Below are positions 4,790 to 21,125 of a stretch of DNA of 35,306 bases, in pieces. How positions within the stretch are numbered: position 1 is the stretch's first letter; each line of letters begins with the position of its first letter. The notes beneath the pieces are model-generated. The model was not told the DNA's origin. It searched no databases and worked only from the letters and a program-made list of their open reading frames with translations. Origin of the DNA: Bacillus sp. AFS055030 (GTDB taxonomy: Bacteria; Bacillota; Bacilli; Bacillales; Bacillaceae_G); contig NZ_NUGT01000030.1 in NCBI RefSeq assembly GCF_002574545.1, positions 1 to 35,306 on the forward strand. The letters run 5' to 3'. A program made the position numbers and the translations under genes.

Positions 4790-4807
4790 TTGTGTACAAA
4801 AACACAA
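4790..4807. promoter_or_regulatory. Palindromic operator candidate upstream of EIICB
   Basis: TTGTGT-N6-ACACAA inverted repeat. Its inner 16 bases match 12 of 16 positions of a palindrome upstream of mngA (14843-14858). This suggests one regulator for both operons, plausibly the RpiR protein encoded between them. Confidence 0.4.
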
Positions 4808-4921
4808 CTTTGAGTACAAATATAGCTTCTGTGTATCTGTATTGTAATGCTAGTAATCTATTGGAATCGCTTCCATTTCAATCTATACTCAAACTGCAAA
4901 CTAAATAAGGAGGAAGTTAAA

Positions 4922-6514
4922 ATGAAAGAATTTTTGCAAAAATTAGGAAAGTCGCTAATGATGCCTATTTCGGTTATTGCAGCCGCAGGTATCTTCTTAG
5001 GTCTCTCTGCTGTATTACAGAATCCAAATATTGTTGGGCAATCGTTTGTTGAAATGACAACAGTACAACAAGTTCTAGGGTTTATTCGTACATTAATCGG
5101 TACTTTATTTGGTAATTTGCCTATTTTATTTGCGATTTCAGTTGCGATCGGTATGGCTAAAGACGAAAAGGCAACCGCTGCATTTAGTACGGTTATTGGT
5201 TTTCTTCTTTTCCATGTAACGCTTAGCTATATGTTAGGTTTAGACGGTATTACAGCTGCAACAACAAATGTTGATTATTTAACAAAAGAAGTTGGAATGT
5301 CTACTCTTGAAGCAACAAAGATTTTTGCTACTTATGATACGGTACTAGGGATTTTCAGTTTCCGAATGAGTGTTTTTGGTGGTATTCTTGTTGGTTTATT
5401 TGTTTCGATGTTACACAATCGTTTTTATCAAATCGAATTACCTACAGCAATTAGTTTCTTTGGCGGACGTCGCTTTATTCCAATCATTACAGTTGTATTA
5501 GTTCCTTTCTTAGCTCTTGCAATGTTCTTTGCTTGGCCCTTCTTAAATAAAGGGATCGTTGGAATCGGTGAATTTATCACTGGTGCTGGTGCTTTCGGTC
5601 CATTTCTTTTCGGATTCTTAGAACGCTTATTGGTTCCGACTGGATTACATCACATTTTAAACCAGCTTACTCGTTTCACTCCAGTAGGCGGAGTTGCTAT
5701 GGTGGATGGACAACAGGTTTCTGGTGCCCTTAATATCTTCAATGCTGTTTTAGCACAAGCAACACCTGATATTGAAACGATGAAAGAAGCAACTCGTTTT
5801 CTAGCTCAAGGTAAGATTCCGTTCATGACATTTGGTTTACCAGCTGCATGTTTAGCTATGTACAGAGCAGCTAAACCACAACATAAAAAACGTGTTGCAG
5901 CATTATTATCTGCCGCAGCATTAGCAAGTTTCACAACTGGTATCACTGAGCCAATCGAATTCGCATTCTTATTTGTATCACCAATCTTATTTGTATTCCA
6001 TGCTTTCATGGCCGGCTTATCATTCATGCTTGCAGATCTCTTCAACATCGGAATTGGTAATGTACAAGGTGGGGTAATTGACCTTACTGTTTTTGGGATA
6101 CTTCAAGGATTGAAAACGAATTGGTGGATTACTGTTATGATCGGTACTTGCTATTCATTTGTGTATTACTTCGTATTTAAATGGGTGATCAACCGCTTTA
6201 ACGTGAAAACACCTGGTCGTGAAGATGAGAATGAAGCAGAGGGCAGTGATGTTGTCATTAACGATGAAGCAACAATCGGTGATGCAATTGTTTCTGCACT
6301 TGGCGGTAAAGAAAACATTAAAGAAGTTGAGAATTGCTTTACTCGTTTACGTCTTGTTCTTTACTCAGTTGATCGAATTGATGAAGCGGCCATTAAAGCA
6401 ACTGGCGCAGCTGGCATCGTAAGAATTAACGATACCAACCTACAGGTTATTTATGGCCCTAAAGTTGAAAGGATTGCATTAGAAGTAAAAAGAAGCTGTT
6501 CAATAGTGGCGTAA
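4922..6514 (+). CDS. PTS EIICB, alpha-glucoside type
   Basis: Imports and phosphorylates a sugar at the membrane. The EIIC domain covers about residues 1-425, with the substrate and phosphate-transfer loop GITEPIEF at 340-347 and LHHILNQL near 242. EIIB follows at about 450-520, with the phosphorylated cysteine Cys472 in ENCFTRLRL. There is no EIIA domain, so it must take phosphate from a separate glucose-type EIIA. Length (530 aa) and order fit the MalP/GlvC alpha-glucoside family. The start at 4922 has AAGGAGG 9 bases upstream; the longer ORF beginning at 4847 has no ribosome binding site. It is followed by a GH4 6-phospho-alpha-glucosidase and a glycerate kinase, so the imported sugar is probably an alpha-glucoside of glycerate rather than maltose. 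That last step is inference. Confidence 0.88.
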   Translation: MKEFLQKLGKSLMMPISVIAAAGIFLGLSAVLQNPNIVGQSFVEMTTVQQVLGFIRTLIGTLFGNLPILFAISVAIGMAKDEKATAAFSTVIGFLLFHVTLSYMLGLDGITAATTNVDYLTKEVGMSTLEATKIFATYDTVLGIFSFRMSVFGGILVGLFVSMLHNRFYQIELPTAISFFGGRRFIPIITVVLVPFLALAMFFAWPFLNKGIVGIGEFITGAGAFGPFLFGFLERLLVPTGLHHILNQLTRFTPVGGVAMVDGQQVSGALNIFNAVLAQATPDIETMKEATRFLAQGKIPFMTFGLPAACLAMYRAAKPQHKKRVAALLSAAALASFTTGITEPIEFAFLFVSPILFVFHAFMAGLSFMLADLFNIGIGNVQGGVIDLTVFGILQGLKTNWWITVMIGTCYSFVYYFVFKWVINRFNVKTPGREDENEAEGSDVVINDEATIGDAIVSALGGKENIKEVENCFTRLRLVLYSVDRIDEAAIKATGAAGIVRINDTNLQVIYGPKVERIALEVKRSCSIVA

Positions 6515-6561
6515 AAAGCAACTTAAATCCTGTTTCTTATCAATGTAATGCACATATAGAA

Positions 6562-6576
6562 ATGTAAACGTTTCAT
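6562..6576. promoter_or_regulatory. cre-like site
   Basis: ATGTAAACGTTTCAT resembles the CcpA cre palindrome but is one base short in the right arm. It lies 48 bases before the GH4 gene and just ahead of a TATAAT (about 6585-6590). It could mark catabolite control of an internal promoter. Confidence 0.4.
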
Positions 6577-6623
6577 ACAAAAAATATAATAAATAATATA
6601 AAATCCAAAGGAGTCGGTTCTTT

Positions 6624-7979
6624 ATGAAAAAAAATAATATCGTATTAGTTGGCGGAGGCTCTACTTGGACACCAGGAATTTTAAAGGCTCTAACAACTCA
6701 TTTAGATCAATTTGCTCTTAATCAAGTAGTTCTTTACGATGTTAATGCAGAACGTCAGGAAGTAATAGGACAATTCGGAGAGATCTTATTCAGTGAAGAA
6801 GCACCTGAAGTAAACTTTATTTATACAACAGAAAAAGATGTTGCTTATAAAGATGTTGATTTTGTTTTCTGTCAAATGCGTACTGGTGGTTATGCAATGC
6901 GTGAGAAGGACGAGAAAATTCCTCTTAGCTTTGGTGTTGTTGGTCAAGAAACATGCGGACCTGGTGGTTTTGCTTATGGTATGCGTTCAATTCGCGATAT
7001 GATTGAAATGGTACAAGATGTGCGTAAATATAGCCCTGATGCGTGGATTTTAAACTACACGAACCCAGCGGCTATTGTAGCACTAGCACTGGACAAGGTT
7101 TTCCCGGATGATAAGAGAATTTTAAACATCTGTGATCAACCAGTTAACTTATTACGTTCTTACGGCCGTTTAATTAACCATGAATATAATAAATTTGAGC
7201 CAACATACTTTGGACTTAACCACTTTGGCTGGTTTACTCATATTTATGATGAGAATGGTCATGATCTTGCACCTAAAATCAAAGAAACGATTTTAAATGG
7301 CGGCTTCCGTCCTGTTGATGCTGAACAACGCGACCAGTCTTGGTTAGATACTTATGCAATGGTAGAAAATATGCTGATTGATTTCCCAGAATATTTACCT
7401 AACACTTATTTACAGTACTATTTATATCCAGAATATAAAGCTTCTAAATTAGATCCGAACTTTACTCGTGCTAATGAGGTTATGGTTGGACGCGAAAAGA
7501 ACGTCTTTGCTGAATGCCGCAGTATCATCGAAAAAGGAACAGCAAAAGATTCACATGTTGTTCATAACGATGCTCATGGAGATATGATTGTTGAAGTTGC
7601 TTCCTCAATTACAAACAACTTGCGACAAACATATATCGTGATTGTTCCAAACAATGGGATTGTTGCAAACCTACCAGATGATGTAATGATTGAAGTTGCT
7701 GCTTCACTTGGAATTAATGGTCCAGCACCATATTCTGTAGGCCATGTTGATACATTCTATAAAGGTTTAATCGAAGGTCAACATGCTTTTGAAAAATTAA
7801 CAGTTGAAGCGTACCTTGAAGGTTCTTATACAAAAGCACTTCAAGCTTTAACGTTAAATAGAACAGTTGTTGACGCTAAGAAAGCTCGTAAAATTCTTGA
7901 TGCTCTTATTGAAGCGAACAAAGATTATTGGCCAGAATTAAAAAAACCAGAAATGAAAAAACAAACAATTTTAGTTTAA
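6624..7979 (+). CDS. 6-phospho-alpha-glucosidase, GH4 family
   Basis: Cytoplasmic hydrolase of 6-phospho-alpha-glucosides, NAD+- and Mn2+-dependent in this family. Seen: the N-terminal Rossmann motif VGGGSTWTPG (9-18), the family signature CGPGG (111-115), NYTNPAA (144-150), NICDQP with Cys170 and Asp171, and GLNHFGW with His200. Cys and His are the metal ligands, and Asp after Cys is typical of alpha- rather than beta-specific members (GlvA/MalA). Length 451 aa is normal. The ribosome binding site is AAAGGAG. It lies 109 bases after EIICB and 63 before glycerate kinase. By homology it splits the imported 6-phosphosugar to glucose-6-phosphate plus aglycone. The neighbouring kinase implies that the aglycone is glycerate. 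Maltose-6-phosphate remains the conventional alternative. Confidence 0.9.
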   Translation: MKKNNIVLVGGGSTWTPGILKALTTHLDQFALNQVVLYDVNAERQEVIGQFGEILFSEEAPEVNFIYTTEKDVAYKDVDFVFCQMRTGGYAMREKDEKIPLSFGVVGQETCGPGGFAYGMRSIRDMIEMVQDVRKYSPDAWILNYTNPAAIVALALDKVFPDDKRILNICDQPVNLLRSYGRLINHEYNKFEPTYFGLNHFGWFTHIYDENGHDLAPKIKETILNGGFRPVDAEQRDQSWLDTYAMVENMLIDFPEYLPNTYLQYYLYPEYKASKLDPNFTRANEVMVGREKNVFAECRSIIEKGTAKDSHVVHNDAHGDMIVEVASSITNNLRQTYIVIVPNNGIVANLPDDVMIEVAASLGINGPAPYSVGHVDTFYKGLIEGQHAFEKLTVEAYLEGSYTKALQALTLNRTVVDAKKARKILDALIEANKDYWPELKKPEMKKQTILV

Positions 7980-8042
7980 ATTCAATAAATTAAGGGGCTA
8001 TTAAATGATAGTTCCTTAATTTTGTTTAAGGAGTAGATGTAT

Positions 8043-9191
8043 ATGAATATTATTGTTGCAATCGATTCTTTTAAAGGGTCAATTACAAGTCTTGAAGCAA
8101 CTGAAGTTATAAAAAATGCACTTCCACAACATAACATTATTGGCATTCCTGTAGCAGATGGAGGTGAAGGAACCGTCACTGCTTTTGTTCAAGCATTAAA
8201 AGGTGAAATGATCACAGAAACTGTTCCTGGTCCTAAAGGTCAACCTATACAAGCTTCCTATGGATGGATCGATTCAGATCAAACAGCCATTATTGAAGTG
8301 GCTCAAGCCTCAGGAATTACTTTAATTGAATCCAGTGACCTTAACCCATATTGTAACTCTTCATTTGGTACAGGTGCACAAATAGTAAGTGCCTTAAATC
8401 GTGGAGCCAAGAAAATCATTATTGGGCTTGGGGGAAGTGCTACAATTGATTGTGGAAAAGGAATAATGGAAGCCCTCGGTGTCAAATTTTTAAATAAATA
8501 CGGTCATACAGTTCCAACGTTTCCACATTCTATTGATCAAGTTACAGAAATAGATACTAGCAAACTTGATCCACGCTTGGCTAACGTTGAATTTATCATC
8601 GCATCTGATGTAACGAATCCATTACTCGGAAAAAATGGTGCTACTTTCATTTTTGGTGCTCAAAAAGGGCTTCATACCTCCCAAATGAATGACTATGATG
8701 AGATGATTAAACGTTTTGCCGATACCATCAATCAATCATTAGCAACAAACTATATCGATCATCCTGGGGCAGGTGCCGCTGGCGGCATTGGTTTTATGCT
8801 TTATTCATTTTTAGGAGCTACTTATCAAAGTGGAATTGAACTACTTATGAAAGAATGCGATTTAGAAGCATCAATTGAAAAAGCCAATCTACTAATAACT
8901 GGTGAAGGACGATTCGATTCACAATCTCTTGCAGGAAAATTACCAATTGGCGTTAGCTTAATCGCAAAAAAACACAACGTTCCAACCATTGTGTTTGCTG
9001 GGAGTATTGAGGATGGTTTAACTGAATTAACCGACTATGGTATTATTGCAACCATACCAATTGTATCTAGTGTTATGACACTTGAGGATGCTATGACTAA
9101 CGCTTCTTCTTTGTTACACCTTGCAGTTAAACGTACTTTTAATCTAATTGATAACTTGTCTACAAGAGATACTTCTGCACATACTCAGTAA
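8043..9191 (+). CDS. Glycerate kinase (GlxK/GarK family)
   Basis: Phosphorylates D-glycerate to a phosphoglycerate, feeding glycolysis. Family marks are MNIIVAIDSFKGS at the N-terminus, VADGGEGT near 40, GLGGSATIDCGKG near 132-144, GAGAAGGIGF near 244, and GEGRFDSQSLAGK near 290. Length 382 aa is normal. ATG 8043 is preferred over ATG 8037 because AAGGAG ends 9 bases before it but only 3 before the earlier one. It is the last gene of the EIICB-GH4 operon. Its 3' end overlaps the convergent rpiR gene by 32 bases, so there is no terminator between them. A glycerate kinase is unexpected in a plain maltose operon but fits glycosylglycerate use, including glycerate released by the nearby MngB. Confidence 0.92.
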   Translation: MNIIVAIDSFKGSITSLEATEVIKNALPQHNIIGIPVADGGEGTVTAFVQALKGEMITETVPGPKGQPIQASYGWIDSDQTAIIEVAQASGITLIESSDLNPYCNSSFGTGAQIVSALNRGAKKIIIGLGGSATIDCGKGIMEALGVKFLNKYGHTVPTFPHSIDQVTEIDTSKLDPRLANVEFIIASDVTNPLLGKNGATFIFGAQKGLHTSQMNDYDEMIKRFADTINQSLATNYIDHPGAGAAGGIGFMLYSFLGATYQSGIELLMKECDLEASIEKANLLITGEGRFDSQSLAGKLPIGVSLIAKKHNVPTIVFAGSIEDGLTELTDYGIIATIPIVSSVMTLEDAMTNASSLLHLAVKRTFNLIDNLSTRDTSAHTQ

Positions 9192-9897
9192 AAATATAAT
9201 TTGTTAAATACGTAAAACTAAGTCTCTCAGATACATCTACCCCATCAATATATAATTCAGATGTCATACCATAAAATTGATAATCTGTTAATTTGGATAG
9301 TGGATTACTTGAGAAACCAGTAATACTAACTGTCGTTGCACCAGCTGCTTTTGCAATTGTTGTAGCATGTAGTGCCGTATCTGTTGAACCACTAACACTA
9401 ATGGCAAATACTAAATCATCTGACGTAAGCATTTTAGCATTATGTTTCATCACATGTGGATCAATAAAAGTATGTGTATTTTTACCAACAATTCGGAGTC
9501 TTTGATGTAAGTCTTCCGCAGCTATACGTGATAACCCTACAGAAAAAAATAAAATTTGGTTAGCACTATGAATCTTTTCAAGTACGATATTCAATACATC
9601 TTGATTAATCAATTGCTTAGTTTTAATAATTTGTTCATCTAAAGCTGTCATCTCCATCAGTGCTTTTTGTTGTGATGATGTTAAATACAAAGACTCTCTA
9701 AATTCCAAAAAACCAGAAAATCCAAGTTTTTTGCATAAACGAATAATAGAATTAGGTGCGGTAAAATTAGCTTCAGCAATTTGCCGTACTGTCATTTGTT
9801 TTAAATCCGCTTTATGTTCAAATAAATAACTAAGCAATTCTTCTTCATTTGAATTAAGTGTTGAACGGTTTTGTTTTATCAAATCAAAAAAATTCAT
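9160..9897 (-). CDS. RpiR-family phosphosugar-responsive regulator
   Basis: Transcription regulator with an N-terminal RpiR helix-turn-helix (about 20-75, TVRQIAEANFTAPNSIIRLC) and a C-terminal SIS sugar-phosphate-binding domain (about 100-235; ILFFSVGLSRIAAEDL and VFAISVSGSTDTALHA). Length 245 aa is typical. The ribosome binding site AAGGAG lies 6-7 bases before ATG. It lies between the EIICB-GH4-glycerate kinase operon and mngAB, which is where a shared regulator would sit. A phosphorylated sugar or phosphoglycoside made by the PTS would be the natural ligand. The related palindromes before EIICB and mngA are candidate binding sites. Its 3' end overlaps the glycerate kinase gene. Confidence 0.88.
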   Translation of the reverse strand: MNFFDLIKQNRSTLNSNEEELLSYLFEHKADLKQMTVRQIAEANFTAPNSIIRLCKKLGFSGFLEFRESLYLTSSQQKALMEMTALDEQIIKTKQLINQDVLNIVLEKIHSANQILFFSVGLSRIAAEDLHQRLRIVGKNTHTFIDPHVMKHNAKMLTSDDLVFAISVSGSTDTALHATTIAKAAGATTVSITGFSSNPLSKLTDYQFYGMTSELYIDGVDVSERLSFTYLTNYIFTEYVQKYLL

Positions 9898-9994
9898 GTC
9901 TTCTCCTTACTTTCTACTTATTTTCCCTTTTGCTCCACCACGGATTTTAATTCTATTTTCCTATCTAACTATATTGTAATAAAAAATACTTAAA

Positions 9995-10034
9995 AACAGT
10001 AGTAAATCTGAATTACTACTGTTATTTTTAATTC
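9995..10034. terminator. Hairpin, possible bidirectional terminator
   Basis: Perfect 10-bp arms AACAGTAGTA / TACTACTGTT (9995-10004, 10014-10023). On the plus strand TATTTTTAATT follows; on the minus strand TTTAAGTATTTTTT follows. On the plus strand it could end read-through from glycerate kinase across rpiR. It also lies in the rpiR promoter region and could instead be an operator. Confidence 0.45.
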
Positions 10035-10046
10035 AAAGTAGCAGTA

Positions 10047-10084
10047 AACATACAAAACACCGTTTATATATCTACAAACGGTGT
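10047..10084 (-). terminator. Terminator downstream of mngB
   Basis: Nine-base arms ACACCGTTT / AAACGGTGT (10057-10065, 10076-10084) with a TTTTGTATGTTT tail on the minus strand. It lies 87 bases after the mngB stop and before the rpiR promoter region. Confidence 0.55.
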
Positions 10085-10170
10085 AAAAATAATTTCTGAT
10101 TTAATTAAATGTAATAAAACTTGTGTCGGGTCAAAGTTTGAATGCCTTAGTAAAATGAATTTCATTTGTT

Positions 10171-12771
10171 TTAAAACAAAATCGATTTGACCTGATTTAC
10201 GCTCACATTTATTCCTACTTGCTGATCATTTACAGAAACTTCTTCATGCTCTTTTTCATTTAAATTAACAATGTATACCTGCCCAATTTCATCATTAAAT
10301 TCCAAAAAAGCATACTCCTCATTTTCCGCTGAATTATAAAAACGTACAACAAATTTATCTTCTTTCTCAGCCTTCTTCAACGTACTTAAAACAACATTTC
10401 CGGAACGCTCTTTAAAAAAGCTAAACTCTAAAGGTGTCCTCACACCAGACTCATTCAACTTCATAGCATCAAAAGGAATCTTATTATAACTAACAATCGG
10501 CGTTAAATACTCCTTAGCAATCCTCGCAACATCCTCTTCCTTATTATATGTCGCAATCGCAAACTCCAGCGACAAATTCCCAATCATCTGCGAATCCGGA
10601 GTAGCCAACTTAATCCCAGACGGTCGCCCTGGTCTACGAATCAACTCCTCTTTCCCAAGAAAACCAACACTTCTAAACAAAGTAATCGCGATTGTATCAA
10701 ACTTCTCACCAACAATCTCATACTCTCTCGTACTATTTGTTAAAACACTAACACCATATTCATCGTTCGATAAACCAACATAACTCAACATAGGATAAAT
10801 TGAATCTGGGCGTTCATCCCAATTTTCTTCCTCCCAATCATGAATTGCTGAATCAACAACGTCTCGTTTTATTGAACCAAATTGGTTATCCGATACTGAA
10901 AAAGCTGAAACAAGTCCTGTTGGAATTAACACTCTTAATCGATGATCCTTCGCTTGATTATTCAATTCAAATGTTATATCAAGTCTCGGTTTATGATTTG
11001 GAACATTCACTACAATATGAACATCAACAGTACTATCAACAATTTGTTCCTTCCGTTTTTCTAAGTTTGAGGGAACAGCTAACGTATATTTAATATCAAT
11101 CATTACCCCGAACCGGTTTTGCTGAATTTTAGTTTCGGCTTGAACAGAATCACTATAAATTAACTCTTCATTTAAAAGTGGAGAGTAGTCATATTCATCA
11201 CCATCATCCCCACCATTTTCCAAACGGAGAACATTATTAAAGCTTTTTTTAAATTGCTTATCAAAAATATTCAAAGTTCCATTTGAATTAACAGTAATCT
11301 CGTAATAATCTGTTTCAACTTTGCTTGTAGAATAAGTAATCTTTTTAATAATTTCATCACTTTCTTGTATAAAATACGTCTTATAACCCATCGATGGAAT
11401 CGTATCTTTTAACTGGATTGTATAGTCAATAAAAGGATCATAGTTTCCATAATGAACAATTTGTCGATCGATTAAGCCCGGATCAGTGACTTTGCTTTCG
11501 ATAATCTCAAAATCTATTTCATTCGATTCATGATCAACAAGTTTAAATGATTTTAACTTTGTCAGAACGCTTGTCGTCACAACTTCAGTTCGCTCATAAG
11601 GAAGTAAGTTAAAAAGTGTAATGCGATCATGTTCATTAGAAGGATCCATTGAATCAACAATTTTTCGTTTATAAAAATTGATTAGTTGATCCACTTTTTC
11701 TTCTGCCAAATAAAACCGGCTAAGAATTTCTCTGTGTACTTTATCCGAACAGCAACAGCCAATACTATCATGCGCATGATTTTTCATCATTTCTTTCCAT
11801 ATTAATTCAATCAAGCCGTGATGATACTCAAAACCCAATCGATAGGCGATTGATGCAAGTGGTTCTAAAATATTGGTGATTTTATTTTCAATTCTCGTAT
11901 TCGCTGCTTTAATATCCATTCTAGTCGAGTAAATACTACGATGAACACGCATGTACTTTCCATCTAAAAATTCACCTTTCAATATTTCAAGGTCTTTTTG
12001 TGCTTCTAGATTCTCAAAAATTTTTTCATATTTACTTAAGAAAAATTCACGTTCTGGATATAGTTTTTGTAGCTTTTCGATGATGGTAAATATATTTTTT
12101 TGAATAGGCATTTGATCATGTCCGTTTGGTAAGATAATATGATCAGTTGTTGCACCTCGATCAAGTACAGTAATATACTTATCTATTCTTTTTTGCAGTG
12201 CTTTCTCATTTTCAGGTAAATACTTTCCGATGGCATACCCTAAAGGAAATAATTGAACTAATACCTTTGAACCATCGTCTGTTTCCCAATAAAATTCTGT
12301 TTTGTCTGTACCATGACGTTCAGATGTCCCTCTCCAGAAGATTGAGTACTTAATATCAAATCCGTTTAAAATCATTGGCATTTGAGCTGATTGTCCGAAT
12401 GAGTCTGGGAGATAACCGATTTTCATCGGTACTCCAAATTCTTCGCAGTCCTTCATCCCGTATAATAAATTACGAACGATTGATTCACCTCCGACGATCA
12501 TTTCATCTGTTTGGGTATACCATGGTCCAATGATTAATCGACCTTCTTGAACTAGCTTTTTTACTCGCTCTTTATTTTCTGGTTTTACTGCGAAGTAATC
12601 TTCTAAAATCGCAGTTTGTCCATCTAGTACATAGTATGGATAGTCATGGTTTGTTTCTAACATTTTCATAATTTCTTCCATATTATTCACTAATAGAATT
12701 CTAGATTCTTCCGTTGTAAAATACCATTCTCTGTCCCAATGCATATGTGGGACGATATGAACTTTTTTCAT
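10171..12771 (-). CDS. mngB: GH38 alpha-mannosidase, 2-O-(6-phospho-mannosyl)-glycerate hydrolase type
   Basis: Cytoplasmic hydrolase expected to cleave the phosphorylated mannosylglycerate made by the adjacent PTS, giving mannose-6-phosphate and glycerate. GH38 marks are HMHWDREW at 9-16 (metal ligands His11, Asp13), GYLPDSFGQ with the predicted nucleophile Asp123, and KNHAHDSIGC near 330-339 with further metal-binding His. Length 866 aa fits MngB. The start ATG at 12771 follows a GGGGTG ribosome binding site. It lies 16 bases after mngA, so the two are co-transcribed. Pairing of GH38 with a fructose-type EIIABC is the known E. coli MngAB arrangement. Exact substrate is inferred from that pairing; other 6-phospho-alpha-mannosides are possible. 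Confidence 0.88.
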   Translation of the reverse strand: MKKVHIVPHMHWDREWYFTTEESRILLVNNMEEIMKMLETNHDYPYYVLDGQTAILEDYFAVKPENKERVKKLVQEGRLIIGPWYTQTDEMIVGGESIVRNLLYGMKDCEEFGVPMKIGYLPDSFGQSAQMPMILNGFDIKYSIFWRGTSERHGTDKTEFYWETDDGSKVLVQLFPLGYAIGKYLPENEKALQKRIDKYITVLDRGATTDHIILPNGHDQMPIQKNIFTIIEKLQKLYPEREFFLSKYEKIFENLEAQKDLEILKGEFLDGKYMRVHRSIYSTRMDIKAANTRIENKITNILEPLASIAYRLGFEYHHGLIELIWKEMMKNHAHDSIGCCCSDKVHREILSRFYLAEEKVDQLINFYKRKIVDSMDPSNEHDRITLFNLLPYERTEVVTTSVLTKLKSFKLVDHESNEIDFEIIESKVTDPGLIDRQIVHYGNYDPFIDYTIQLKDTIPSMGYKTYFIQESDEIIKKITYSTSKVETDYYEITVNSNGTLNIFDKQFKKSFNNVLRLENGGDDGDEYDYSPLLNEELIYSDSVQAETKIQQNRFGVMIDIKYTLAVPSNLEKRKEQIVDSTVDVHIVVNVPNHKPRLDITFELNNQAKDHRLRVLIPTGLVSAFSVSDNQFGSIKRDVVDSAIHDWEEENWDERPDSIYPMLSYVGLSNDEYGVSVLTNSTREYEIVGEKFDTIAITLFRSVGFLGKEELIRRPGRPSGIKLATPDSQMIGNLSLEFAIATYNKEEDVARIAKEYLTPIVSYNKIPFDAMKLNESGVRTPLEFSFFKERSGNVVLSTLKKAEKEDKFVVRFYNSAENEEYAFLEFNDEIGQVYIVNLNEKEHEEVSVNDQQVGINVSVNQVKSILF

Positions 12772-12787
12772 TTTGGTTTTTCACCCC

Positions 12788-14725
12788 TTACGCAACACTT
12801 TGTTGTGATGCCTTTACTTTTATTTCTTTAATGATTTTCTGTTTTCTTGTCATAATTAATAAAATTGTAGAGATAACTGCACCCACTAATGCTGCACCAA
12901 TCCATATACTTGCAGCTAATAGAGCTGGTTTTCCTTGAAGTAATGCTAATGAGAAAATCCCAGCACCTGGAACATTTAATCCAATATTAAAATAAGCAAC
13001 AATCGCTCCTGTTACTGCTGAACCAGCGATTAATGAAGGAATCACTCGAAGTGGATCATTAATCATAAATGGTATCGCACCTTCTGTTATTCCGGCTAAG
13101 CCAAGTAACCATGTTTGTTTACCAACTTCTTTTTCTTGTTCGGAAAATAGATGTTTTCCTATGATTGTTGCTCCAGTGACGGAGAATGCAGAGACCATTT
13201 TGACCGATGCAAATGCTGCGTAAGGTACAATATTTCCGCTCGCCATTGCGCCAATACAGAAAGTGTATGCAGCTTTGTTTACAGGCCCACCAAGGTCAAA
13301 TGAAACCATCGCTCCTAAAATTGCTCCCAAAATTATCGCGTTTGTCCCACTCATGCCATTTAGCCATTCAATTAGTCCTTCGTTTAAGAAAGCTAAAGGC
13401 TTACCAATAACAAATAGCATAATTGAACCAACCACTAGTGTTCCGACTACAGGATAAAACCAGAAACTAACAAATCCTGCGAAAGTCCCTTTTGGCTTGA
13501 CCTTTACTTTTAAATACTTTAAGAAATAACCTGCTAGTAATCCTCCTAGCATACCTCCTAAAAATCCACTGCCGATTAAATTCGCTGCGACCCCTGCTGC
13601 AAACCCTGGCCCTAATGCTGGTTTATCAGCAATCGAGTATGCCATATAAGCTGCTAAAAGTGGAATCATGATTTGTCCTAATAAAGTACCACCTAATTGA
13701 CGTAATAACCATAACCATGATCCTTCCGCTGCATATACATCTTGAAGTCCAAAAGCTTGCGCAATAAAGACAGCCGCCGCTAACGTCATACCTCCCGCTA
13801 CAATAATAGGGATGATGTGAGAAATTCCTGTTAAAAGAGAATCCTTGATTTCTGTTTTAAATGATTTGTTTTCTACTTCATGATGTTGTTCTTCTCTTTC
13901 GCCCATTTCTAATTTAGGTACACTTCCCACTTTTTGGAGTGCTTGTTCTAAAATTCCTTTTGCATTTCGAATTGGTGCAGCTACAGATGTTTTAACTTTT
14001 GGAAGATGTTTGAATCGCTCTTCATCTTTTACCGCAACATCCACCGCAAATACAATCGCATCTGCCTTTCTGATCAAATCAAACGTATGTCGGTCTTCAA
14101 CTCCATTGGCACCTTGTTTTTCAACAAATACATTTATGCCTAAATCATTCCCCGCTTTCACGAGTGCTTCCGCTGCCATATAGGTATGTGCAATGCCAGC
14201 TGGACAAGCTGTAATAGCTAATATTGTTTTATCGCCTTTTGGAGAGACTTTCAGATTAGTAGGTTGTAATGGTGCATCAAGAAGATTAAATAGTTCTTTA
14301 GTTGTTCTTGCATGTAGTAGATTATGTTTATATTCTTCGTCTGATAATCTCGTAACTAATTCTGCTAATAAAGTAAGATGTGTAGTGCCTTCCTCTTCTT
14401 TTGGAATAGCAAATAAAATGACTAATTCAACTTGATTATTTGGATCAATACTTTCCCAATTACTCATTGGTTTCTCAAGTGTAACAACCGCGAACGAAGA
14501 TTCTTTTACAGATGAGGATTTACCATGTGGAATGGCTAGACCACCTTCAAAACCAGTTGGAGATAAAGCTTCCCTTTCCATCACTGCATGAAAAAACTCT
14601 TCTTCAGAATGAATTTTTCCTTCTGCCGCTAACTCTTTAACTAAATAACTTATGATCTCTTCTTTCGATGAAAATGACTTTTTTGTACTGATTAAAGCTT
14701 CTGATGTTAACTTTTTTAACTGCAT
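12788..14725 (-). CDS. mngA: PTS EIIABC, fructose/mannosylglycerate family
   Basis: Membrane PTS permease with three domains in order. EIIA is about 1-150, with phospho-His67 in LAIPHGKS. EIIB is about 165-265, with Cys174 in ITACPAGIAHTYMAAEAL. EIIC is about 295-635, beginning near GISHIIPIIVAGG and with multiple membrane segments. The fused EIIA makes it independent of the shared glucose EIIA. Length 645 aa matches MngA-type proteins. I chose ATG 14725 because AAAGGGG lies 8 bases before it; the longer ORF (14743) starts upstream of that site. The downstream partner is the GH38 hydrolase, which supports mannosylglycerate as substrate over fructose. The leader contains an intrinsic-terminator hairpin and an upstream palindrome. 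Confidence 0.88.
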   Translation of the reverse strand: MQLKKLTSEALISTKKSFSSKEEIISYLVKELAAEGKIHSEEEFFHAVMEREALSPTGFEGGLAIPHGKSSSVKESSFAVVTLEKPMSNWESIDPNNQVELVILFAIPKEEEGTTHLTLLAELVTRLSDEEYKHNLLHARTTKELFNLLDAPLQPTNLKVSPKGDKTILAITACPAGIAHTYMAAEALVKAGNDLGINVFVEKQGANGVEDRHTFDLIRKADAIVFAVDVAVKDEERFKHLPKVKTSVAAPIRNAKGILEQALQKVGSVPKLEMGEREEQHHEVENKSFKTEIKDSLLTGISHIIPIIVAGGMTLAAAVFIAQAFGLQDVYAAEGSWLWLLRQLGGTLLGQIMIPLLAAYMAYSIADKPALGPGFAAGVAANLIGSGFLGGMLGGLLAGYFLKYLKVKVKPKGTFAGFVSFWFYPVVGTLVVGSIMLFVIGKPLAFLNEGLIEWLNGMSGTNAIILGAILGAMVSFDLGGPVNKAAYTFCIGAMASGNIVPYAAFASVKMVSAFSVTGATIIGKHLFSEQEKEVGKQTWLLGLAGITEGAIPFMINDPLRVIPSLIAGSAVTGAIVAYFNIGLNVPGAGIFSLALLQGKPALLAASIWIGAALVGAVISTILLIMTRKQKIIKEIKVKASQQSVA

Positions 14726-14775: not shown

Positions 14776-14811
14776 AAAAAAAAAATAAGAAGCCGGAAAC
14801 TTCTTATTTTT
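14776..14811 (-). terminator. Terminator-like hairpin in the mngA leader (possible attenuator)
   Basis: Arms 14781-14792 and 14800-14811 form a 12-bp stem (AAATAAGAAG core) with loop CCGGAAA. On the minus strand a run of ten T follows. It lies 50 bases before the mngA start, downstream of the palindrome at 14843-14858. No good promoter fits between it and the gene. A close copy follows the second rpiR gene at 21052-21086. Confidence 0.6.
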
Positions 14812-14842
14812 ACACAGTATTTTCATATTTTTATATATTATG

Positions 14843-14858
14843 TGTGTATTTATACACA
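14843..14858. promoter_or_regulatory. Palindromic operator candidate upstream of mngA
   Basis: TGTGTAT-TT-ATACACA is a perfect inverted repeat. Twelve of 16 bases match the palindrome before EIICB (4791-4806). It probably overlaps the weak, AT-rich mngA promoter. RpiR (9160-9897) is the favoured binder, by position only. Confidence 0.45.
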
Positions 14859-14928: not shown

Positions 14929-16566
14929 TTAGTCCTTTCTTAACAATTGATTAATTGTAAAAGTAAGCATCTCTCTTAACTCATCGAATGCATTATTTAC
15001 ATCTAACCGTTCCGTCCATTTATGTGCATCTTTACCTACAGGACCTAAGTTAAGCACAGGAATATTCAACTTCTCTAAATCATCTAAAGGAACACTATAT
15101 CCTTTTTCCCAAAGTGGCATATTTGAAATAAGGCTTCCTAGTTCTGAAGCTGGTTTTTCTAGTCCTACATAACTTAAGTCTGATAAACCGGCAAAATAAT
15201 TTTGTTTTTTAAGAACTAGATTATACTCATCTTTTGCATATTCAATAACCTGATCAACTACTGTTCGAATACGAGGATGATTTCGAGAACATACAGCTGG
15301 GTAATATGGTGGTGCAAAGAAAAGAACAATCATTGGAGATAGCTCTTTACAAAGAATGCTAAGCTCATCAACTAATTGAATCGATACGTCTCGATCATCT
15401 TTTTTCCCTCTATTACTCACAATATGTTGCTGGATTTGATCCACTTTTTCTTTACCATAGGTTTTGATTGCATAATTTAGTAATTCGTCAAAATTGAATA
15501 CATTTACATTAACTTTCTTTGCTGTAGAATTTTCTAATGTAGAAAAATGAGTTGCTCTTGTTTCATAGCCTTGCTCAATTTTTCGTGCAACTTTTTGAGC
15601 ACTCGTTTGTAGCTTTTTCGTAATCGCATCCATTGATTGTTCCATTATAAATAGGTTAAACAACGTGACTGCGCGATGTGGGATTTGTACATTATATTCT
15701 TTTTTCAAGTCTTTTTGAATGAGATTTGTAGGAGGAGGTGTGACCTCACCTTCAATGACTTCACAATAGTCTGTGTTTAATTCTAATTCACATGTTAGTT
15801 GAGAGGCCATATAATTCCCATTTAATCCAGAAAAAGGTTCACCAACATGGGTTTCCTTCCCGTAGCATAGGAAACCTGCTAAAACCTTGCCGATTGAGCC
15901 AGAATAAATATATGAATTTTCATCTCCTGGATATCTAGCAAACATAGGCTCCGAATTTAAACATGCTCTGTATTCAAGATCGTGTTTTTCTGCCATTTCT
16001 AGAAGTATTGGTGCAGCATTTCGCATTCCAACAGAGTTCACTTCTTCATCACAAACGGTTACTAGAAGTAAATTGCCATCAAATGCTCCAGAACATGCTT
16101 CTTCAATTAATGACATATGTAAGGTTAGACCACATTTCATATCCATTGTTCCTCTACCAAACAGCCATTCACCATTTTGCAAATCCTTTTGAACTTCTTC
16201 AGACATTTTTTCTTTATTATTATAAAATAATTCTGTTAATTTTTTAGGGTTAAAAGCAAATTCTTTCCAACTACCATAATCTTCTACATCGACTACATCA
16301 AAATGACTAACAAGGACGATTGTCTTTTTTTCATTCGTCCCTTTTTTTACAAGAGCTGTTACGAATTTACGATCATCTTCTGTTGTATGGAGTTTTAAAT
16401 ACTCTTGATGATCTTGAAAATAAGGAAGTTGACGGAGTTTTTTTTCAACATATTCCGCAATTTCAATTTCACCACTAGAATGTGTCACACTTGGGATCTC
16501 GACAAGTTCACAAAGTAAGTCGATTAATTGATTTTTTGTCTGCCAATTGTTCTCTATCGTTTTCAT
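14929..16566 (-). CDS. M20-family metallohydrolase, RocB-like
   Basis: Zinc-dependent amidohydrolase/peptidase. M20 marks are VLVSHFDVVD (His88, Asp90), LFGRGTMDMK with bridging Asp142, and CDEEVNSVG with Glu174/Glu175. A late His appears in GKDAHKWTERL, near residue 515. Length 545 aa and overall sequence fit RocB of Bacillus arginine-utilisation regulons, longer than ordinary M20 deacylases. The start at 16566 follows GGGGAG; the longer ORF (16599) has no such signal. It follows the gntR gene by 119 bases. Together with an aminotransferase and an MFS carrier it suggests deacylation of an N-acyl amino acid or a small peptide. The true substrate is unknown, and arginine context is absent here. 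Confidence 0.85.
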   Translation of the reverse strand: MKTIENNWQTKNQLIDLLCELVEIPSVTHSSGEIEIAEYVEKKLRQLPYFQDHQEYLKLHTTEDDRKFVTALVKKGTNEKKTIVLVSHFDVVDVEDYGSWKEFAFNPKKLTELFYNNKEKMSEEVQKDLQNGEWLFGRGTMDMKCGLTLHMSLIEEACSGAFDGNLLLVTVCDEEVNSVGMRNAAPILLEMAEKHDLEYRACLNSEPMFARYPGDENSYIYSGSIGKVLAGFLCYGKETHVGEPFSGLNGNYMASQLTCELELNTDYCEVIEGEVTPPPTNLIQKDLKKEYNVQIPHRAVTLFNLFIMEQSMDAITKKLQTSAQKVARKIEQGYETRATHFSTLENSTAKKVNVNVFNFDELLNYAIKTYGKEKVDQIQQHIVSNRGKKDDRDVSIQLVDELSILCKELSPMIVLFFAPPYYPAVCSRNHPRIRTVVDQVIEYAKDEYNLVLKKQNYFAGLSDLSYVGLEKPASELGSLISNMPLWEKGYSVPLDDLEKLNIPVLNLGPVGKDAHKWTERLDVNNAFDELREMLTFTINQLLRKD

Positions 16567-16685
16567 TAACAAATCTCCCCATCCATTTAGAATTAACAAT
16601 TTTGATAACGCGTTTGCATATACTTGTATTTAAATTTCTTTGGTAGGCATTGTATCTTGTTGTCAAGTTGCTCAAGTGGGAGCAT

Positions 16686-17339
16686 TTATTTTACAGGCTT
16701 TATTAAAAATCGTTTTGAAACATTTTTGATATGATTTAACATTAATTCTGATGCTTCAGTTGAATCTTTTCTTTCTAGGGCATCTAAAATTTGATAATGT
16801 TCTTTAACAGCTTCCGGTGCGCTAGATTGAATTGTATTTGTCAGGATTAAATATCTTTGTAAATTCGTACGAAGAGATGAAATAAACTCTTTTAATTTAT
16901 GGTTATTTGTAAATTCAGCAAGGTAACAATGAAACTGGGTATCTAAATTAATAAATTGACTATAATCTTTTTCATCGATACTTTCTTGCTGTTGATTGCA
17001 AATATCTTTTAAGAATGCTAATTGCTCACTATCAATGCTTTGACAAGCAAGTTTAGCTACTAAAGGCTCCAATGATTCTCTAACAACTTGGTACTCTTGT
17101 ACTTCTTCGACAGAGATCATTCGAACTCTTGTATGTTTGGCTGTTTCCATTTCCACTAAACCTTCATAAGCTAACTTTTTTAACGCTGTTCTAATTGGAG
17201 TTCGGCTTATTCCTAATTTTTCGGCAATTTGCTCTTCAATTAAGTATTCCAGTGGTTTTATTTCATTATTAATAATGGCATTTTTTATAACATCATACGC
17301 TTGATCAGATAAAGAACCAGCAGATTTTAATTTTTTCAT
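16686..17339 (-). CDS. GntR-family regulator, FCD (FadR-type) subgroup
   Basis: Transcription factor with a winged helix-turn-helix at about 8-75 (EEQIAEKLGISRTPIRTALK) and an all-helical FCD effector domain at 85-215, which usually binds a small carboxylate through metal-binding His residues. Length 217 aa is typical. The ribosome binding site GGGAGATAGGT precedes ATG 17339. It lies inside the MFS-aminotransferase-RocB cluster. A near-perfect 16-base-arm palindrome just upstream (17392-17427) sits right after a TATAAT, as expected for autoregulation. GTATAC-centred elements before rraA are further candidate sites. Confidence 0.88.
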   Translation of the reverse strand: MKKLKSAGSLSDQAYDVIKNAIINNEIKPLEYLIEEQIAEKLGISRTPIRTALKKLAYEGLVEMETAKHTRVRMISVEEVQEYQVVRESLEPLVAKLACQSIDSEQLAFLKDICNQQQESIDEKDYSQFINLDTQFHCYLAEFTNNHKLKEFISSLRTNLQRYLILTNTIQSSAPEAVKEHYQILDALERKDSTEASELMLNHIKNVSKRFLIKPVK

Positions 17340-17391
17340 ACCTATCTCCCTTTAGCATTAATCCATTTAAGATTCTCTTAAACAATAAGAG

Positions 17392-17432
17392 TCAAACTAT
17401 GATGTACAAAAGTACAACATAGTTTGATTATA
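17392..17432 (-). promoter_or_regulatory. gntR promoter -10 with long palindromic operator
   Basis: Minus-strand TATAAT at 17427-17432 is followed immediately by a palindrome with arms TCAAACTATGATGTAC and GTACAACATAGTTTGA (17392-17407, 17412-17427; 15 of 16 positions pair). There is no T-run, so an operator fits better than a terminator. The -35 is weak (TTTACA, 15-base spacing). Confidence 0.5.
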
Positions 17433-17516
17433 TCATGATGTAGGGAATGTAAATATCTTCTAAAGAATAATTAACTATCAAAAAAGAGCGTTATTCAATT
17501 CGATACTCACACTCTA

Positions 17517-18701
17517 CTATACTTCCTCTACTGCTTTCTTTCTATTAAAATTAGATTGCATAAATTGCTCCATTCTATCTAATGCTTTTTCGAGCATTTC
17601 CATCGAAGCAGCATACGAGATTCTTACATATCCTTCTCCATATTTAGAAAATCCATCACCCGGTACGACCGCTACTTTTGCTTCCTGTAATAATTTCAAC
17701 GCAAATTGAAATGATTTCATATTTGTATTTTTAATAGAAGGGAATACGTAAAAAGCACCTTCAGGTTTGATGACTTCAAATCCCATGTTCATTAATCTTT
17801 CACAAACATAATCTCTTCTTTGTCGATATTCCACAACCATTTGATTCGCGTCATTTATGCCATTTGTAAGTGCCTCAATTGCAGCATATTGACTAATCGT
17901 GCTAGCACAGACTGAGTTATAAAGATGTACTTTTAGCATTTGCTCAGAAATGTAGGCTGGAGCAAATGTGAAACCAATTCTCCACCCTGTCATTGAATGT
18001 GATTTAGCAAGACCATTAATCACAATTGTTTTTTCCCACATACCTGGTAGAGAAGCGATTGAATAGTGGTTTTTATCGTAAGTCAGTTCACTGTATATTT
18101 CATCTGAAACGACGAAAATATCCCTTTCTCTTAAAAGCAACGCTATTTTCTTAAGATCTTCATAATCTAGCACGCTACCTAAAGGATTAGATGGTGAGCA
18201 AAGAACTAAACAACGAGTCTTTTCTGTCATATGACGCTTGATCAATTCAGCATTAATCTTGAAGTTATTTTGAGTCACGTCTATATAGACAGGGATGGCT
18301 CCACACATTTCGATCAGTGGTTCATAGCCTGGGTAAATAGGAGCAGGGAGTAAGACCTCATCCCCTTCTCTCAAAATTGTACGAAAAGCTGAATCTAGTG
18401 CTTCTGTAGCGCCGTTTGTCACAATGATTTCTCTAGCAGCATCATAGGAAAGATTGTATTTTTTATACAGAAAATCGCTAGCTGCTTTCCTTAGGCTAAG
18501 TAATCCAGCATTTTCCGTATATGCTGTATAATTCTGTTTTATTGCTGAAATTCCAGCTTCTTTAATATGCTCAGGTGTAGGGAAATCAGGCTGGCCAAGT
18601 GTAAGATTAATCGCATCTGGATAATCAACAACCATGTTAAAAAATTTTCTAATCCCTGGAACCTGAAGTGCTGTTACGCTTTTATTTAGTAAATTTTCCA
18701 T
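17517..18701 (-). CDS. PLP-dependent aminotransferase, PatA-like
   Basis: Fold-type I aminotransferase in the cytoplasm. Seen: LTLGQPDFPTPEH (33-45), YTENAGLLSLRKA, CSPSNPLGS with Asn172, VVSDEIYSELTY with Asp200 and Tyr203, and the Schiff-base Lys233 in LAKSHSMTGWRIGF. Length 394 aa. It is closely PatA-like along its whole length; in B. subtilis PatA acts on N-acetyl-L,L-diaminopimelate. Here it sits in a catabolic-looking cluster rather than a dap operon, so it may be a paralog acting on an amino acid released by the M20 hydrolase. The ribosome binding site is AAGGTG. It lies 42 bases downstream of the MFS gene, in the same transcript. Confidence 0.88.
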   Translation of the reverse strand: MENLLNKSVTALQVPGIRKFFNMVVDYPDAINLTLGQPDFPTPEHIKEAGISAIKQNYTAYTENAGLLSLRKAASDFLYKKYNLSYDAAREIIVTNGATEALDSAFRTILREGDEVLLPAPIYPGYEPLIEMCGAIPVYIDVTQNNFKINAELIKRHMTEKTRCLVLCSPSNPLGSVLDYEDLKKIALLLRERDIFVVSDEIYSELTYDKNHYSIASLPGMWEKTIVINGLAKSHSMTGWRIGFTFAPAYISEQMLKVHLYNSVCASTISQYAAIEALTNGINDANQMVVEYRQRRDYVCERLMNMGFEVIKPEGAFYVFPSIKNTNMKSFQFALKLLQEAKVAVVPGDGFSKYGEGYVRISYAASMEMLEKALDRMEQFMQSNFNRKKAVEEV

Positions 18702-18743
18702 CGTTACACACCTTCTTTTCGATTTACAATCTTGAAATGATTC

Positions 18744-20057
18744 CTACTTAGTTTCTAACTTAACTAATGGTCGATCTGGCTTGATAAAGAACCATAAGAT
18801 TGCTGCAAATACAACAGGAATAATGTTGATTAATAAAGTGATATTCCATCCCATTTCTTGTGCAAACCATCCACAAATAATTGGAGATGTGATCCCCCCT
18901 ATTGCTCCCCAAGTATTCATCCAACCACTAACAGAACCTGAGAATTCTTGACCCATGTCATTCGCTATAGCCCATGAAGCAACGATTGGAAGTCCTAATG
19001 CACCAAGTGCTACTGTCAACCAAAGAACATTTGACCAAGGAGTAACCGAGTAAGCTGCAAGATATAGTCCTAAAATGAAAAAGGCGAATCCTAAAATGGC
19101 CATTCCTCCACGTGCAATCATACGAGAGTTTGTTTTTTGTAAAATTTTATCTGAAATAGCACCACCAATTAGAACAGAAAAACAAATTGCTAACCAAGGG
19201 AAACTTGCCGCTAATCCCATTTCTTTTAATGAAAAATTACGTGCCTCCATTAAATAAGTTGGCAACCATGTTAAAAAGAATGTATTCATATAAATTACAA
19301 CAAGGTATTGTACTCCTACAGCCCAAAATCGATAATTTTTTAAGTATTGTTTCCAAGGGGCTGTTTTTTTCTTACTGCTTGAAATACTACGGTTTTCAAT
19401 AATAAGTGCTTTTTCTCTTTCAGAAATCCATGGGTGCTCTTCTGGTTTATTTCGTCCAACAAAATACCATAGTAAAGCTACAACAACGCCAACTACACCA
19501 AATATGTAAAATACTCCGTGCCAACCAAACCATGCCATAATAGCAACTGATATCCCAGGCGCAATAACTGGACCAAAAAACGAACCAGCCAATAACGCAC
19601 TTGAAGCACGACCTTTTTCATGTTTTTGGAACCAATATGAATTGAAAACAGCATTTCCTGGATACATCGGTCCTTCACCAGCTCCAAAGAAAAATCTGAC
19701 GATGCACAGTACAACGTAGTTAACAGATGCAGCTGTTAAAGTTGTAAATAACGACCACCACGCAACCGCAATTGTCACGATATTCCTCGCGCCAAACCTT
19801 TCAGCTAACATCCCTCCAGGAATTTGTGAAAAACAATAGCCTAAATAAAAGAGAGAAGATAATAGTCCAAATTGAACTTTATCCAATCCTAAATCTTTCA
19901 TCATCGGCACAGCTACAATCGAAATATTAGAACGATCCATATACGCAATAAATCCTATAATGAAAAAAATAAAAGCAAGTCCCCAACGCAAACCTAATTT
20001 TTTTTCTTTTACAGTTGAAGTGTCTAATTGTTTGTCAACAGCTAATTTCCCCATCAT
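18744..20057 (-). CDS. MFS transporter, anion:cation symporter (ACS) family
   Basis: Twelve-segment inner-membrane carrier, likely importing an organic anion with protons. The N-terminus RWGLAFIFFIIGFIAYMDRS is the ACS signature region (YxDRxNxS). GGMLAERFGARN is the MFS loop 2-3 motif, and a large cytoplasmic loop follows segment six (around ISEREKALIIENRSISSSKK). Length 437 aa is normal. GGAGAGGGT precedes two adjacent ATGs; either could start translation. It lies 52 bases after rraA and 42 before the aminotransferase. Family members carry hexuronates, tartrate, galactonate or phthalate. The neighbours argue for an amino-acid-derived or acylated carboxylate here. Confidence 0.85.
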   Translation of the reverse strand: MMGKLAVDKQLDTSTVKEKKLGLRWGLAFIFFIIGFIAYMDRSNISIVAVPMMKDLGLDKVQFGLLSSLFYLGYCFSQIPGGMLAERFGARNIVTIAVAWWSLFTTLTAASVNYVVLCIVRFFFGAGEGPMYPGNAVFNSYWFQKHEKGRASSALLAGSFFGPVIAPGISVAIMAWFGWHGVFYIFGVVGVVVALLWYFVGRNKPEEHPWISEREKALIIENRSISSSKKKTAPWKQYLKNYRFWAVGVQYLVVIYMNTFFLTWLPTYLMEARNFSLKEMGLAASFPWLAICFSVLIGGAISDKILQKTNSRMIARGGMAILGFAFFILGLYLAAYSVTPWSNVLWLTVALGALGLPIVASWAIANDMGQEFSGSVSGWMNTWGAIGGITSPIICGWFAQEMGWNITLLINIIPVVFAAILWFFIKPDRPLVKLETK

Positions 20058-20109
20058 ACCCTCTCCTTTTTTGGATCTAATTAAGAAACAGTAGTCATTT
20101 TAAAACTAA

Positions 20110-21051: not shown

Positions 21052-21086
21052 TAAAAAAAATAAGAAGCGGGAAACTTCTTATTTTT
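21052..21086 (-). terminator. Terminator of the second rpiR gene
   Basis: A 12-bp stem (21056-21067 / 21075-21086), loop CGGGAAA, then a run of eight T on the minus strand. Its sequence is nearly the same as the hairpin in the mngA leader (14776-14811), including flanking ACTGTG. Confidence 0.75.
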
Positions 21087-21125
21087 ACACAGTTCCTAGT
21101 ATTTTTTTAGTTTACATACTATTCA

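Follow-up and report, generated by a model that had tools for sequence, protein, structure and literature searches.

The stretch from 4.9 to 14.7 kb of the window (the whole 35,306-nucleotide piece of DNA that was analysed, from Bacillus sp. AFS055030) is likely a module with two arms that scavenge glycosylglycerate osmolytes, the substrate of the second arm being, as we infer, glucosylglycerate. In the first arm MngA would import 2-O-alpha-mannosyl-D-glycerate as its 6-phosphate and MngB would release mannose-6-phosphate and D-glycerate. In the second arm an EIICB permease, presumably phosphorylated by an EIIA-Glc encoded elsewhere, would import 2-O-alpha-glucosyl-D-glycerate as the 6-phosphate, and an NAD- and Mn-dependent enzyme of family GH4 would split the 6-phospho-glucosylglycerate into glucose-6-phosphate and D-glycerate. 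A glycerate kinase would convert the D-glycerate of both arms to phosphoglycerate, with a regiochemistry that is predicted, and two RpiR/SIS regulators reading near-identical operators would control the arms. The module probably allows this bacterium to feed on two compounds that other organisms produce to protect themselves against salt. The elements identified are:

4922 to 6514, forward strand: EIICB PTS permease, glc/malX superfamily, no fused EIIA (Pfam and NCBIfam)
6624 to 7979, forward strand: GH4 6-phospho-alpha-glucosidase of a distinct clade (family search, PDB matches, clade tree)
about 8043 to 9191, forward strand: type-II glycerate kinase (PF02595, TIGR00045)
9160 to 9897, reverse strand: RpiR1, an RpiR/SIS regulator whose gene converges on that of the kinase
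10057 to 10084, reverse strand: terminator-like stem-loop 3' of mngB
10171 to 12771, reverse strand: MngB, GH38 2-O-(6-phospho-mannosyl)-D-glycerate hydrolase (NCBIfam, above cut-off)
12788 to 14725, reverse strand: MngA, mannosylglycerate EIIABC, fructose superfamily (NCBIfam, above cut-off)
21126 to 21869, reverse strand: RpiR2, an RpiR/SIS regulator, ortholog of the regulator upstream of mngA in relatives

The EIICB, GH4 and kinase genes lie on the same strand, about 109 and 63 bp apart, and a ribosome-binding site is found directly upstream of EIICB. The reading frame of the kinase was listed from 8037, the ATG at 8043 being better spaced, and the tail of this gene is overlapped by the 3' end of the convergent RpiR1 gene. 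Open reading frames and families agree with the preliminary description, where EIICB, GH4 and glycerate kinase shared an operon next to an RpiR regulator and a GH38/EIIABC pair. RpiR2 is located beyond the coordinates of that description and is absent from its list. Stem-loops of the terminator-like type number 13 in the region, against a mean of 6.6 in shuffles.

The mannosylglycerate arm is a known route. In E. coli, 2-O-mannosylglycerate enters through MngA as the 6-phosphate, from which MngB releases mannose-6-phosphate and glycerate. The window proteins are 55% (MngA) and 52% (MngB) identical to these, with scores of 985 bits to the mannosylglycerate PTS model (cut-off 763) and 1260 bits to the mannosylglycerate hydrolase model (cut-off 1138); both are above the curated NCBIfam cut-offs, and the two form a true MngA/MngB pair. 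The scheme proposed for the second arm is that of the E. coli mng system, PTS import as the 6-phosphate followed by intracellular splitting to hexose-6-phosphate and glycerate, but a glc-family EIICB would take the place of the fru-family EIIABC and a redox GH4 that of the GH38, and the arm brings its own glycerate kinase.

The kinase belongs to type II (GarK/GlxK family), with 427 bits to PF02595 and 404 bits to TIGR00045 (cut-off 168). Its recurrent linkage with the GH4/EIICB pair, set beforehand as a test of the proposed route, was found: a kinase is present at 7 kb or less from GH4 in 25 of 81 loci of the window's GH4 clade and in none of the 73 GH4 loci outside it (Fisher p 1.4e-8). The window is not counted and five loci fetched twice were removed; the loci from public genomes were the best 80 of the scan rather than randomly sampled, and the 73 controls all belong to a single order. 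Neighbour genes were counted by tblastn, including five loci without drawn gene context. The order search alone gave 3 of 6 clade loci against 0 of 73, and in two GH4 control groups (the GlvA-like one included) neither kinase nor GH38 was linked (0/71). The linked loci show several gene orders and belong to Bacillota, Vibrio and one Fusobacteriia MAG; RpiR1 orthologs hold the same place in L039, L070 and L071. With at least 12 changes on the GH4 tree the kinase trait is not one inherited block, although it remains clustered: the minimum over 200 label shuffles was 18 changes and the mean 22. Close relatives with window-type EIICB, GH4 and RpiR but lacking the kinase include Amphibacillus cookii (L096), Alkalibacterium pelagium (L083) and Marinilactibacillus (L088, L090 and L113).

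A kinase serving the mannosylglycerate arm only, with EIICB and GH4 importing an ordinary alpha-glucoside (maltose, trehalose or a sucrose isomer), is unlikely. Such a function would fit the kinase that two of the 20 Bacillales mng loci (L228 and L230) have near MngB, and the 6-phospho-alpha-glucosidases such as GlvA, whose substrate we take to be maltose-6-phosphate, in agreement with the title of PDB entry 1u8x. It would also fit the 56 of 81 clade loci without a kinase within 7 kb, including enterobacterial, lactobacillal and coriobacterial ones, so that other glucosides are possible there. In the window, however, the kinase gene is in line with GH4 and on the opposite strand from mngAB, the order EIICB-GH4-GK-RpiR recurs in two Amphibacillus loci and in Streptohalobacillus, and a near copy of the mng operator is located in the EIICB promoter. 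Furthermore, the linked kinase is the only PF02595 match in genomes G201, G106 and G230 and no MngB match was found in any of the three; the kinase there is therefore not serving mannosylglycerate through MngB.

The sites upstream of both operons, with no strand assigned, are:

14843 to 14858: mng operator TGTGTATAAATACACA, upstream of mngA
4791 to 4806: palindrome TGTGTACAAAAACACA resembling the operator, 5' of the EIICB operon
4862 to 4875: cre-like catabolite site TGGAATCGCTTCCA, 0 mismatches to TGNAANCGNTNNCA, which we take to be the cre consensus

Of 20 Bacillales loci, 19 have the mng operator upstream of mngA with no more than 2 mismatches, and 14 have it without any. The EIICB palindrome differs from it by 2 mismatches and recurs unchanged in front of the orthologous EIICB of L079. 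Since a 14/16 match is not rare (a rough estimate, in AT-rich sequence), the likeness of the two window sites was rejected as significant alone and the comparison relied on motifs derived from other genomes. Four of 12 foreign EIICB promoters contain the operator at 2 mismatches or fewer. A symmetrised motif taken solely from four foreign EIICB promoters scored 19.5 at the window EIICB site, 17.9 at the mngA site and 10.6 at the next, while with the same motif not symmetrised the mngA site was third in the window. The whole genome contains 7 distinct sites with no more than 2 mismatches to the mng operator, that of the EIICB promoter included.

In all 20 relatives retrieved, the RpiR2 ortholog immediately precedes mngA; in the window an insert has split the two, with five genes between. 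RpiR1 as the sole regulator of both operons was rejected because the mngA site goes with RpiR2 in these 20 relatives, and two regulators with like operators fit better. RpiR2 is the best match to RpiR1 among the 8 other RpiR proteins of the genome (115 bits, the next 90), with only 31% identity. Which regulator binds which site is a prediction, and so are the ligands of both. For the use of mannosylglycerate by Bacillales the comparison offers a regulator and an operator as candidates.

An MngB-like GH38, 31-36% identical to E. coli MngB, was identified in 11 clade loci, 8 of them also with the kinase; the two of these 11 that were scanned gave 800 and 595 bits, below the NCBIfam cut-off of 1138. 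The trait shows 5 changes on the GH4 tree, and the permeases of the 11 loci form one clade with no GH38-free member in a tree of 76 permeases (L043, L102, L105, L106, L124 and L134 not included). Because of these joined operons and the near-identical operators the GH4 operon is tied to mannosylglycerate, and together with the kinase linkage they support the earlier proposal of an EIICB/GH4 route whose substrate would be glucosylglycerate. A larger glycoside (mannosylglucosylglycerate or glucosylglucosylglycerate) as substrate of the second arm is hardly probable. Alkalibacterium and Halolactibacillus contain GH38, one permease, GH4 and kinase in a single operon, as mannosyl-glucosyl-glycerate would need; yet a single PTS phosphorylation followed by GH38 cleavage would leave glucosylglycerate without the 6-phosphate that this GH4 group needs, and the GH4 operon of the window has no GH38 of its own.

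The best PDB match of the window GH4 is 6vc6, a 6-phospho-alpha-glucosidase from gut microorganisms (587 bits, 58% identity), which is located inside the window's clade in the tree; GlvA (1u8x) gave 450 bits. The predicted model of the window enzyme matches the GH4 fold of both structures, with a TM of 0.95 to 6vc6. The GlvA/MalA and AglB-type operons have a GH4 of the same family with an adjoining EIICB and often an RpiR neighbour, as in the window, the window enzyme sharing 47% identity with GlvA and likewise with the Klebsiella enzyme. Common to all are C170, D171, H200 and Y262, present in 82 of 82 clade rows; they include the Cys and His metal ligands and the base Tyr of GH4 enzymes, whose NYxNP and alpha-group CDxP motifs the window enzyme also has. 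The clade signature is W15, Q172, N175, Q235, R236, Y244 and N315, found in 82 of 82 clade rows and each below 15% in either of two control groups of 35 and 36 rows; Q172, N175, Q235, R236, Y244 and N315 distinguish the window enzyme from the GlvA/MalA and AglB-type ones. 6vc6 has Q172, N175, Q235, R236 and Y244 but Y15 and S315. Kinase-free clade loci also carry the signature, which therefore marks the clade and is no proof of glycerate binding.

This retention would also suit a GH4 clade of general 6-phospho-alpha-glucosidases whose substrate is set by the permease, the kinase being kept only for glycerate-glycoside substrates, as would the fact that GH38 linkage follows the permease and that the kinase is found in 2 of 20 against 23 of 56 rows by permease group (window included). 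Such a general enzyme is nevertheless improbable, as the residues beside the catalytic acid are clade-specific, with a new invariant Arg236 (82/82), and differ from those of the GlvA-like group.

The permease matches PTS_EIIC (240 bits) and PTS_EIIB. It is thus an EIICB as first described, but the alpha-glucoside type is not supported: model TIGR02005 gave 276 bits (cut-off 607), and the MalX (493 bits, cut-off 632) and glucose (422 bits) models scored higher, both also below cut-off. Permease specificity is therefore unreadable from the family name, which was rejected as a source for the substrate of the second arm. Two EIIA-Glc domains are encoded elsewhere in the genome.

Cyanobacteria are among the bacteria that produce glucosylglycerate in response to salt or nitrogen stress. 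To our knowledge its degraders are hydrolases or phosphorylases acting on the free solute. The solute is the one proposed for the second arm, but it is unphosphorylated, as described for the hydrolase in PMC11009771 and for the phosphorylase in a title of its reference list, and no PTS takes part. The literature searched, some of it in partial text, contained neither a PTS/GH4 route for glucosylglycerate nor a contrary biochemical result, and the route appears to be undescribed. The chances are about even that it represents a widespread new PTS pathway, formed by permease, specialised GH4 with Arg236 as candidate carboxylate site, and kinase. The kinase would be linked in Bacillota, Vibrio and the Fusobacteriia MAG and encoded elsewhere in Enterobacterales; one permease lineage would have merged with the MngB-like GH38, so that a single transporter would supply glycolysis with both glucosyl- and mannosylglycerate, and the two arms of the window would share one operator code. 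If true, this would explain glucosylglycerate harvest by fermenting and facultative bacteria, assign a role to a GH4 clade whose annotation goes no further than 6-phospho-alpha-glucosidase (the 6vc6 structure included) and provide a set of marker genes with which to follow osmolyte turnover.

The regulators of the window are of the RpiR type whereas that of E. coli mng is a GntR protein (MngR). Beside the unit, a GntR protein 30-36% identical to MngR was identified in 25 of 80 loci, an identity close to the level among distant family members.

The preliminary description had placed an EIICB permease, a GH4 enzyme and a glycerate kinase in one operon beside an RpiR regulator and a GH38/EIIABC pair, and open reading frames and family searches find this correct. 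The best reading of the GH4 arm is a probable glucosylglycerate route; a PTS permease with a phospho-glycosidase is of a kind already known, and this would be a variant of it with glucosylglycerate as the predicted substrate.

Features of the window (genes from 4922 to 14725 by open reading frames and family searches)
4791, operator-like TGTGTACAAAAACACA upstream of the EIICB operon
4862, cre-like site, perfect match
4922-6514, + strand, EIICB
6624-7979, + strand, GH4
about 8043-9191, + strand, type-II glycerate kinase
9160-9897, - strand, RpiR regulator (RpiR1)
10171-12771, - strand, MngB
12788-14725, - strand, MngA
14778-14835, conserved inverted repeat (mngA promoters of loci L226-L240 and L244 compared)
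14929-20790, - strand, M20 peptidase, GntR/FCD regulator, aminotransferase, MFS transporter and RraA-like protein
21126-21869, RpiR2, the window ortholog of the mng-locus RpiR

MngA and MngB both exceed their NCBIfam cut-offs and share 55% and 52% identity with the E. coli proteins; EIICB passes no specific NCBIfam permease model. The genome (4.39 Mb in 91 contigs, the window being C32) contains six GH4 matches, two PF02595 glycerate kinases and two EIIA-Glc domains, either of which could be the phosphate donor for EIICB.

The search of the order (397 genomes) gave six GH4 relatives at 65-80% identity, and the best 80 of 526 relatives were used from the public-genome scan. With the public part so composed, a kinase lies within 7 kb of the GH4 in 28 of the 86 fetched loci of this clade. 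The linkage of the kinase to this GH4/EIICB pair, on which the earlier proposal depended, recurs: it is seen in 25/81 loci, after removal of five fetched twice and with the window excluded (public part, best 80 of 526), versus 0/73 in three more distant GH4 groups (0/35, 0/36 and 0/2; Fisher p 1.4e-8), these controls being drawn from one order alone (35/39, 36/37 and 2/36 of such places in the order search, hand count) and a few of them, like some clade loci, ending early at contig ends. Within that order the comparison is 3/6 vs 0/73 (p 2.5e-4, own arithmetic). The adjoining kinase is the sole PF02595 match of each of the three genomes, where MngB had no match; the other three have a single PF02595 match located away from the GH4. 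The kinase trait requires at least 12 changes on the GH4 tree (at least 18 in 200 label shuffles), and gene orders differ: EIICB-GH4-GK, GH4-EIICB-GK, and RpiR-GK divergent from GH4. The clade GH4 was found in none of 11 same-genus genomes searched (best identity 49%), which may mean that the window's lineage acquired the EIICB-GH4-GK-RpiR block recently.

Against the glucosylglycerate reading, 56 of the 81 clade loci (public part, best 80 of 526) have no kinase within 7 kb, including five close relatives with window-type permease and regulator (L083, L088, L090, L096 and L113). By permease group, kinase rows number 2/20 in one (Lactobacillales, Coriobacteriia, some Clostridia and Bacillaceae) and 23/56, window included, in the other; L043 has a kinase but is absent from the permease tree. 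Kinase-poor loci may act on other glucosides. In Clostridium paraputrificum (L141:8382-9113), GH4 and glycerate kinase flank a ChbG/YdjC-like deacetylase, which scores 206 bits against a cut-off of 227; a protein that by its first residues appears similar takes that position in Maledivibacter (L133:8337-9122). This hints at an acetylated substrate.

The closest solved structures to the window GH4 are 6-phospho-alpha-glucosidases. Its AlphaFold model (mean pLDDT 89) gives TM 0.95 with 6vc6, which falls inside the clade on the tree, and 0.92 with GlvA. Catalytic positions are conserved in 82/82 clade rows, as is each of a set near them, W15, Q172, N175, Q235, R236, Y244 and N315, each with a frequency under 15% in both control groups, of 35 and 36 rows. 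Q172 directly follows Asp171, which aligns with Asp172, the catalytic acid of GlvA, and Arg236 is a candidate partner for the glycerate carboxylate. 6vc6 shares Q172, N175, Q235, R236 and Y244 but has Y15 and S315 in the two other positions.

An RpiR protein is directly upstream of mngA in all 20 fetched Bacillales mng loci (20 of 28 places at 61% identity or more, window's excluded, hand count), and the palindrome TGTGTATAAATACACA precedes mngA exactly in 14 and within two mismatches in 19. Seven distinct sites within two mismatches, the EIICB site included, occur in the whole genome (three for the reversed control pattern), and, given about 6 background sites, one would land by chance in the 400 bp ahead of EIICB with a probability close to 5e-4 (own arithmetic). 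Ahead of orthologous EIICB genes in other genera, the motif is exact in Streptohalobacillus and has at most two mismatches at 4 of the 12 loci compared; a motif built from four foreign EIICB sites alone places the mngA site second among window sites if symmetrised and third otherwise. RpiR1 and RpiR2 share 31% identity, RpiR2 scoring highest to RpiR1 among the genome's other RpiR proteins. Further one-mismatch TGTGTAYAAAWACACA copies lie at C19:23439, C66:70819 and C88:40832; the first has another RpiR gene (C19:22791) some 450 bases away. Between the mng operator and the mngA start, most of the 20 loci carry an inverted repeat, AATAAGAAG...CTTCTTATT, then a T-run, which could be a second operator or attenuator. 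A GntR protein with 30-36% identity to E. coli MngR adjoins the unit in 25/80 loci (Vibrionaceae, enterobacteria, Fusobacteriota); the top NCBIfam model of three of four scanned, all below cut-off, is PRK09764 (MngR), and so low an identity is weak evidence.

GH38 proteins with 31-36% identity to E. coli MngB occur in 11 clade loci (Alkalibacterium, Halolactibacillus, Youngiibacter, Cetobacterium, Helcococcus), eight also with the kinase, seven of the eight being ordered RpiR-GH38-EIICB-GH4-GK. On the model for mannosylglycerate hydrolase the two scanned reach 800 and 595 bits, short of its 1138 cut-off, and no other NCBIfam model matches them. All 11 permeases group in a single clade that has no GH38-free member (76 clade permeases, six clade loci left out), against five changes of the GH38 trait on the GH4 tree; GH38 thus travels with the permease, as expected if one permease imported both solutes.

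No PTS or GH4 glucosylglycerate route appears, by titles and abstract openings, among the literature matches listed, and no full-text pairing of 'glycerate kinase' with '6-phospho-alpha-glucosidase' was found; the route is provisionally undescribed, subscription journals being mostly outside the literature covered. A 2024 review on how glucosylglycerate is synthesised (PMC11009771) contains neither 'PTS' nor 'GH4', and one of its passages gives mycobacterial hydrolases as degraders. MngA and MngB are described in passages of PMC8490865 and PMC2815779.

The glycerate kinase can serve the MngB arm too, because one is near mngB in 2/20 mng loci (L228:4533-5654, L230:11823-12950); both are closer to the window genome's other kinase than to the GH4-linked one. 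The MngB match is in two pieces at G128:C1:2321623-2324216 and limited to the last third at G207:C66:151282, possibly through decay or assembly errors. Finally, RpiR2 and mngA, contiguous in the same-genus loci L226 and L227, are separated in the window by the five genes at 14929-20790, and the insert is edged on both sides by a repeated piece of the mngA promoter, about 57 bp long (14778-14835 and 21053-21109).
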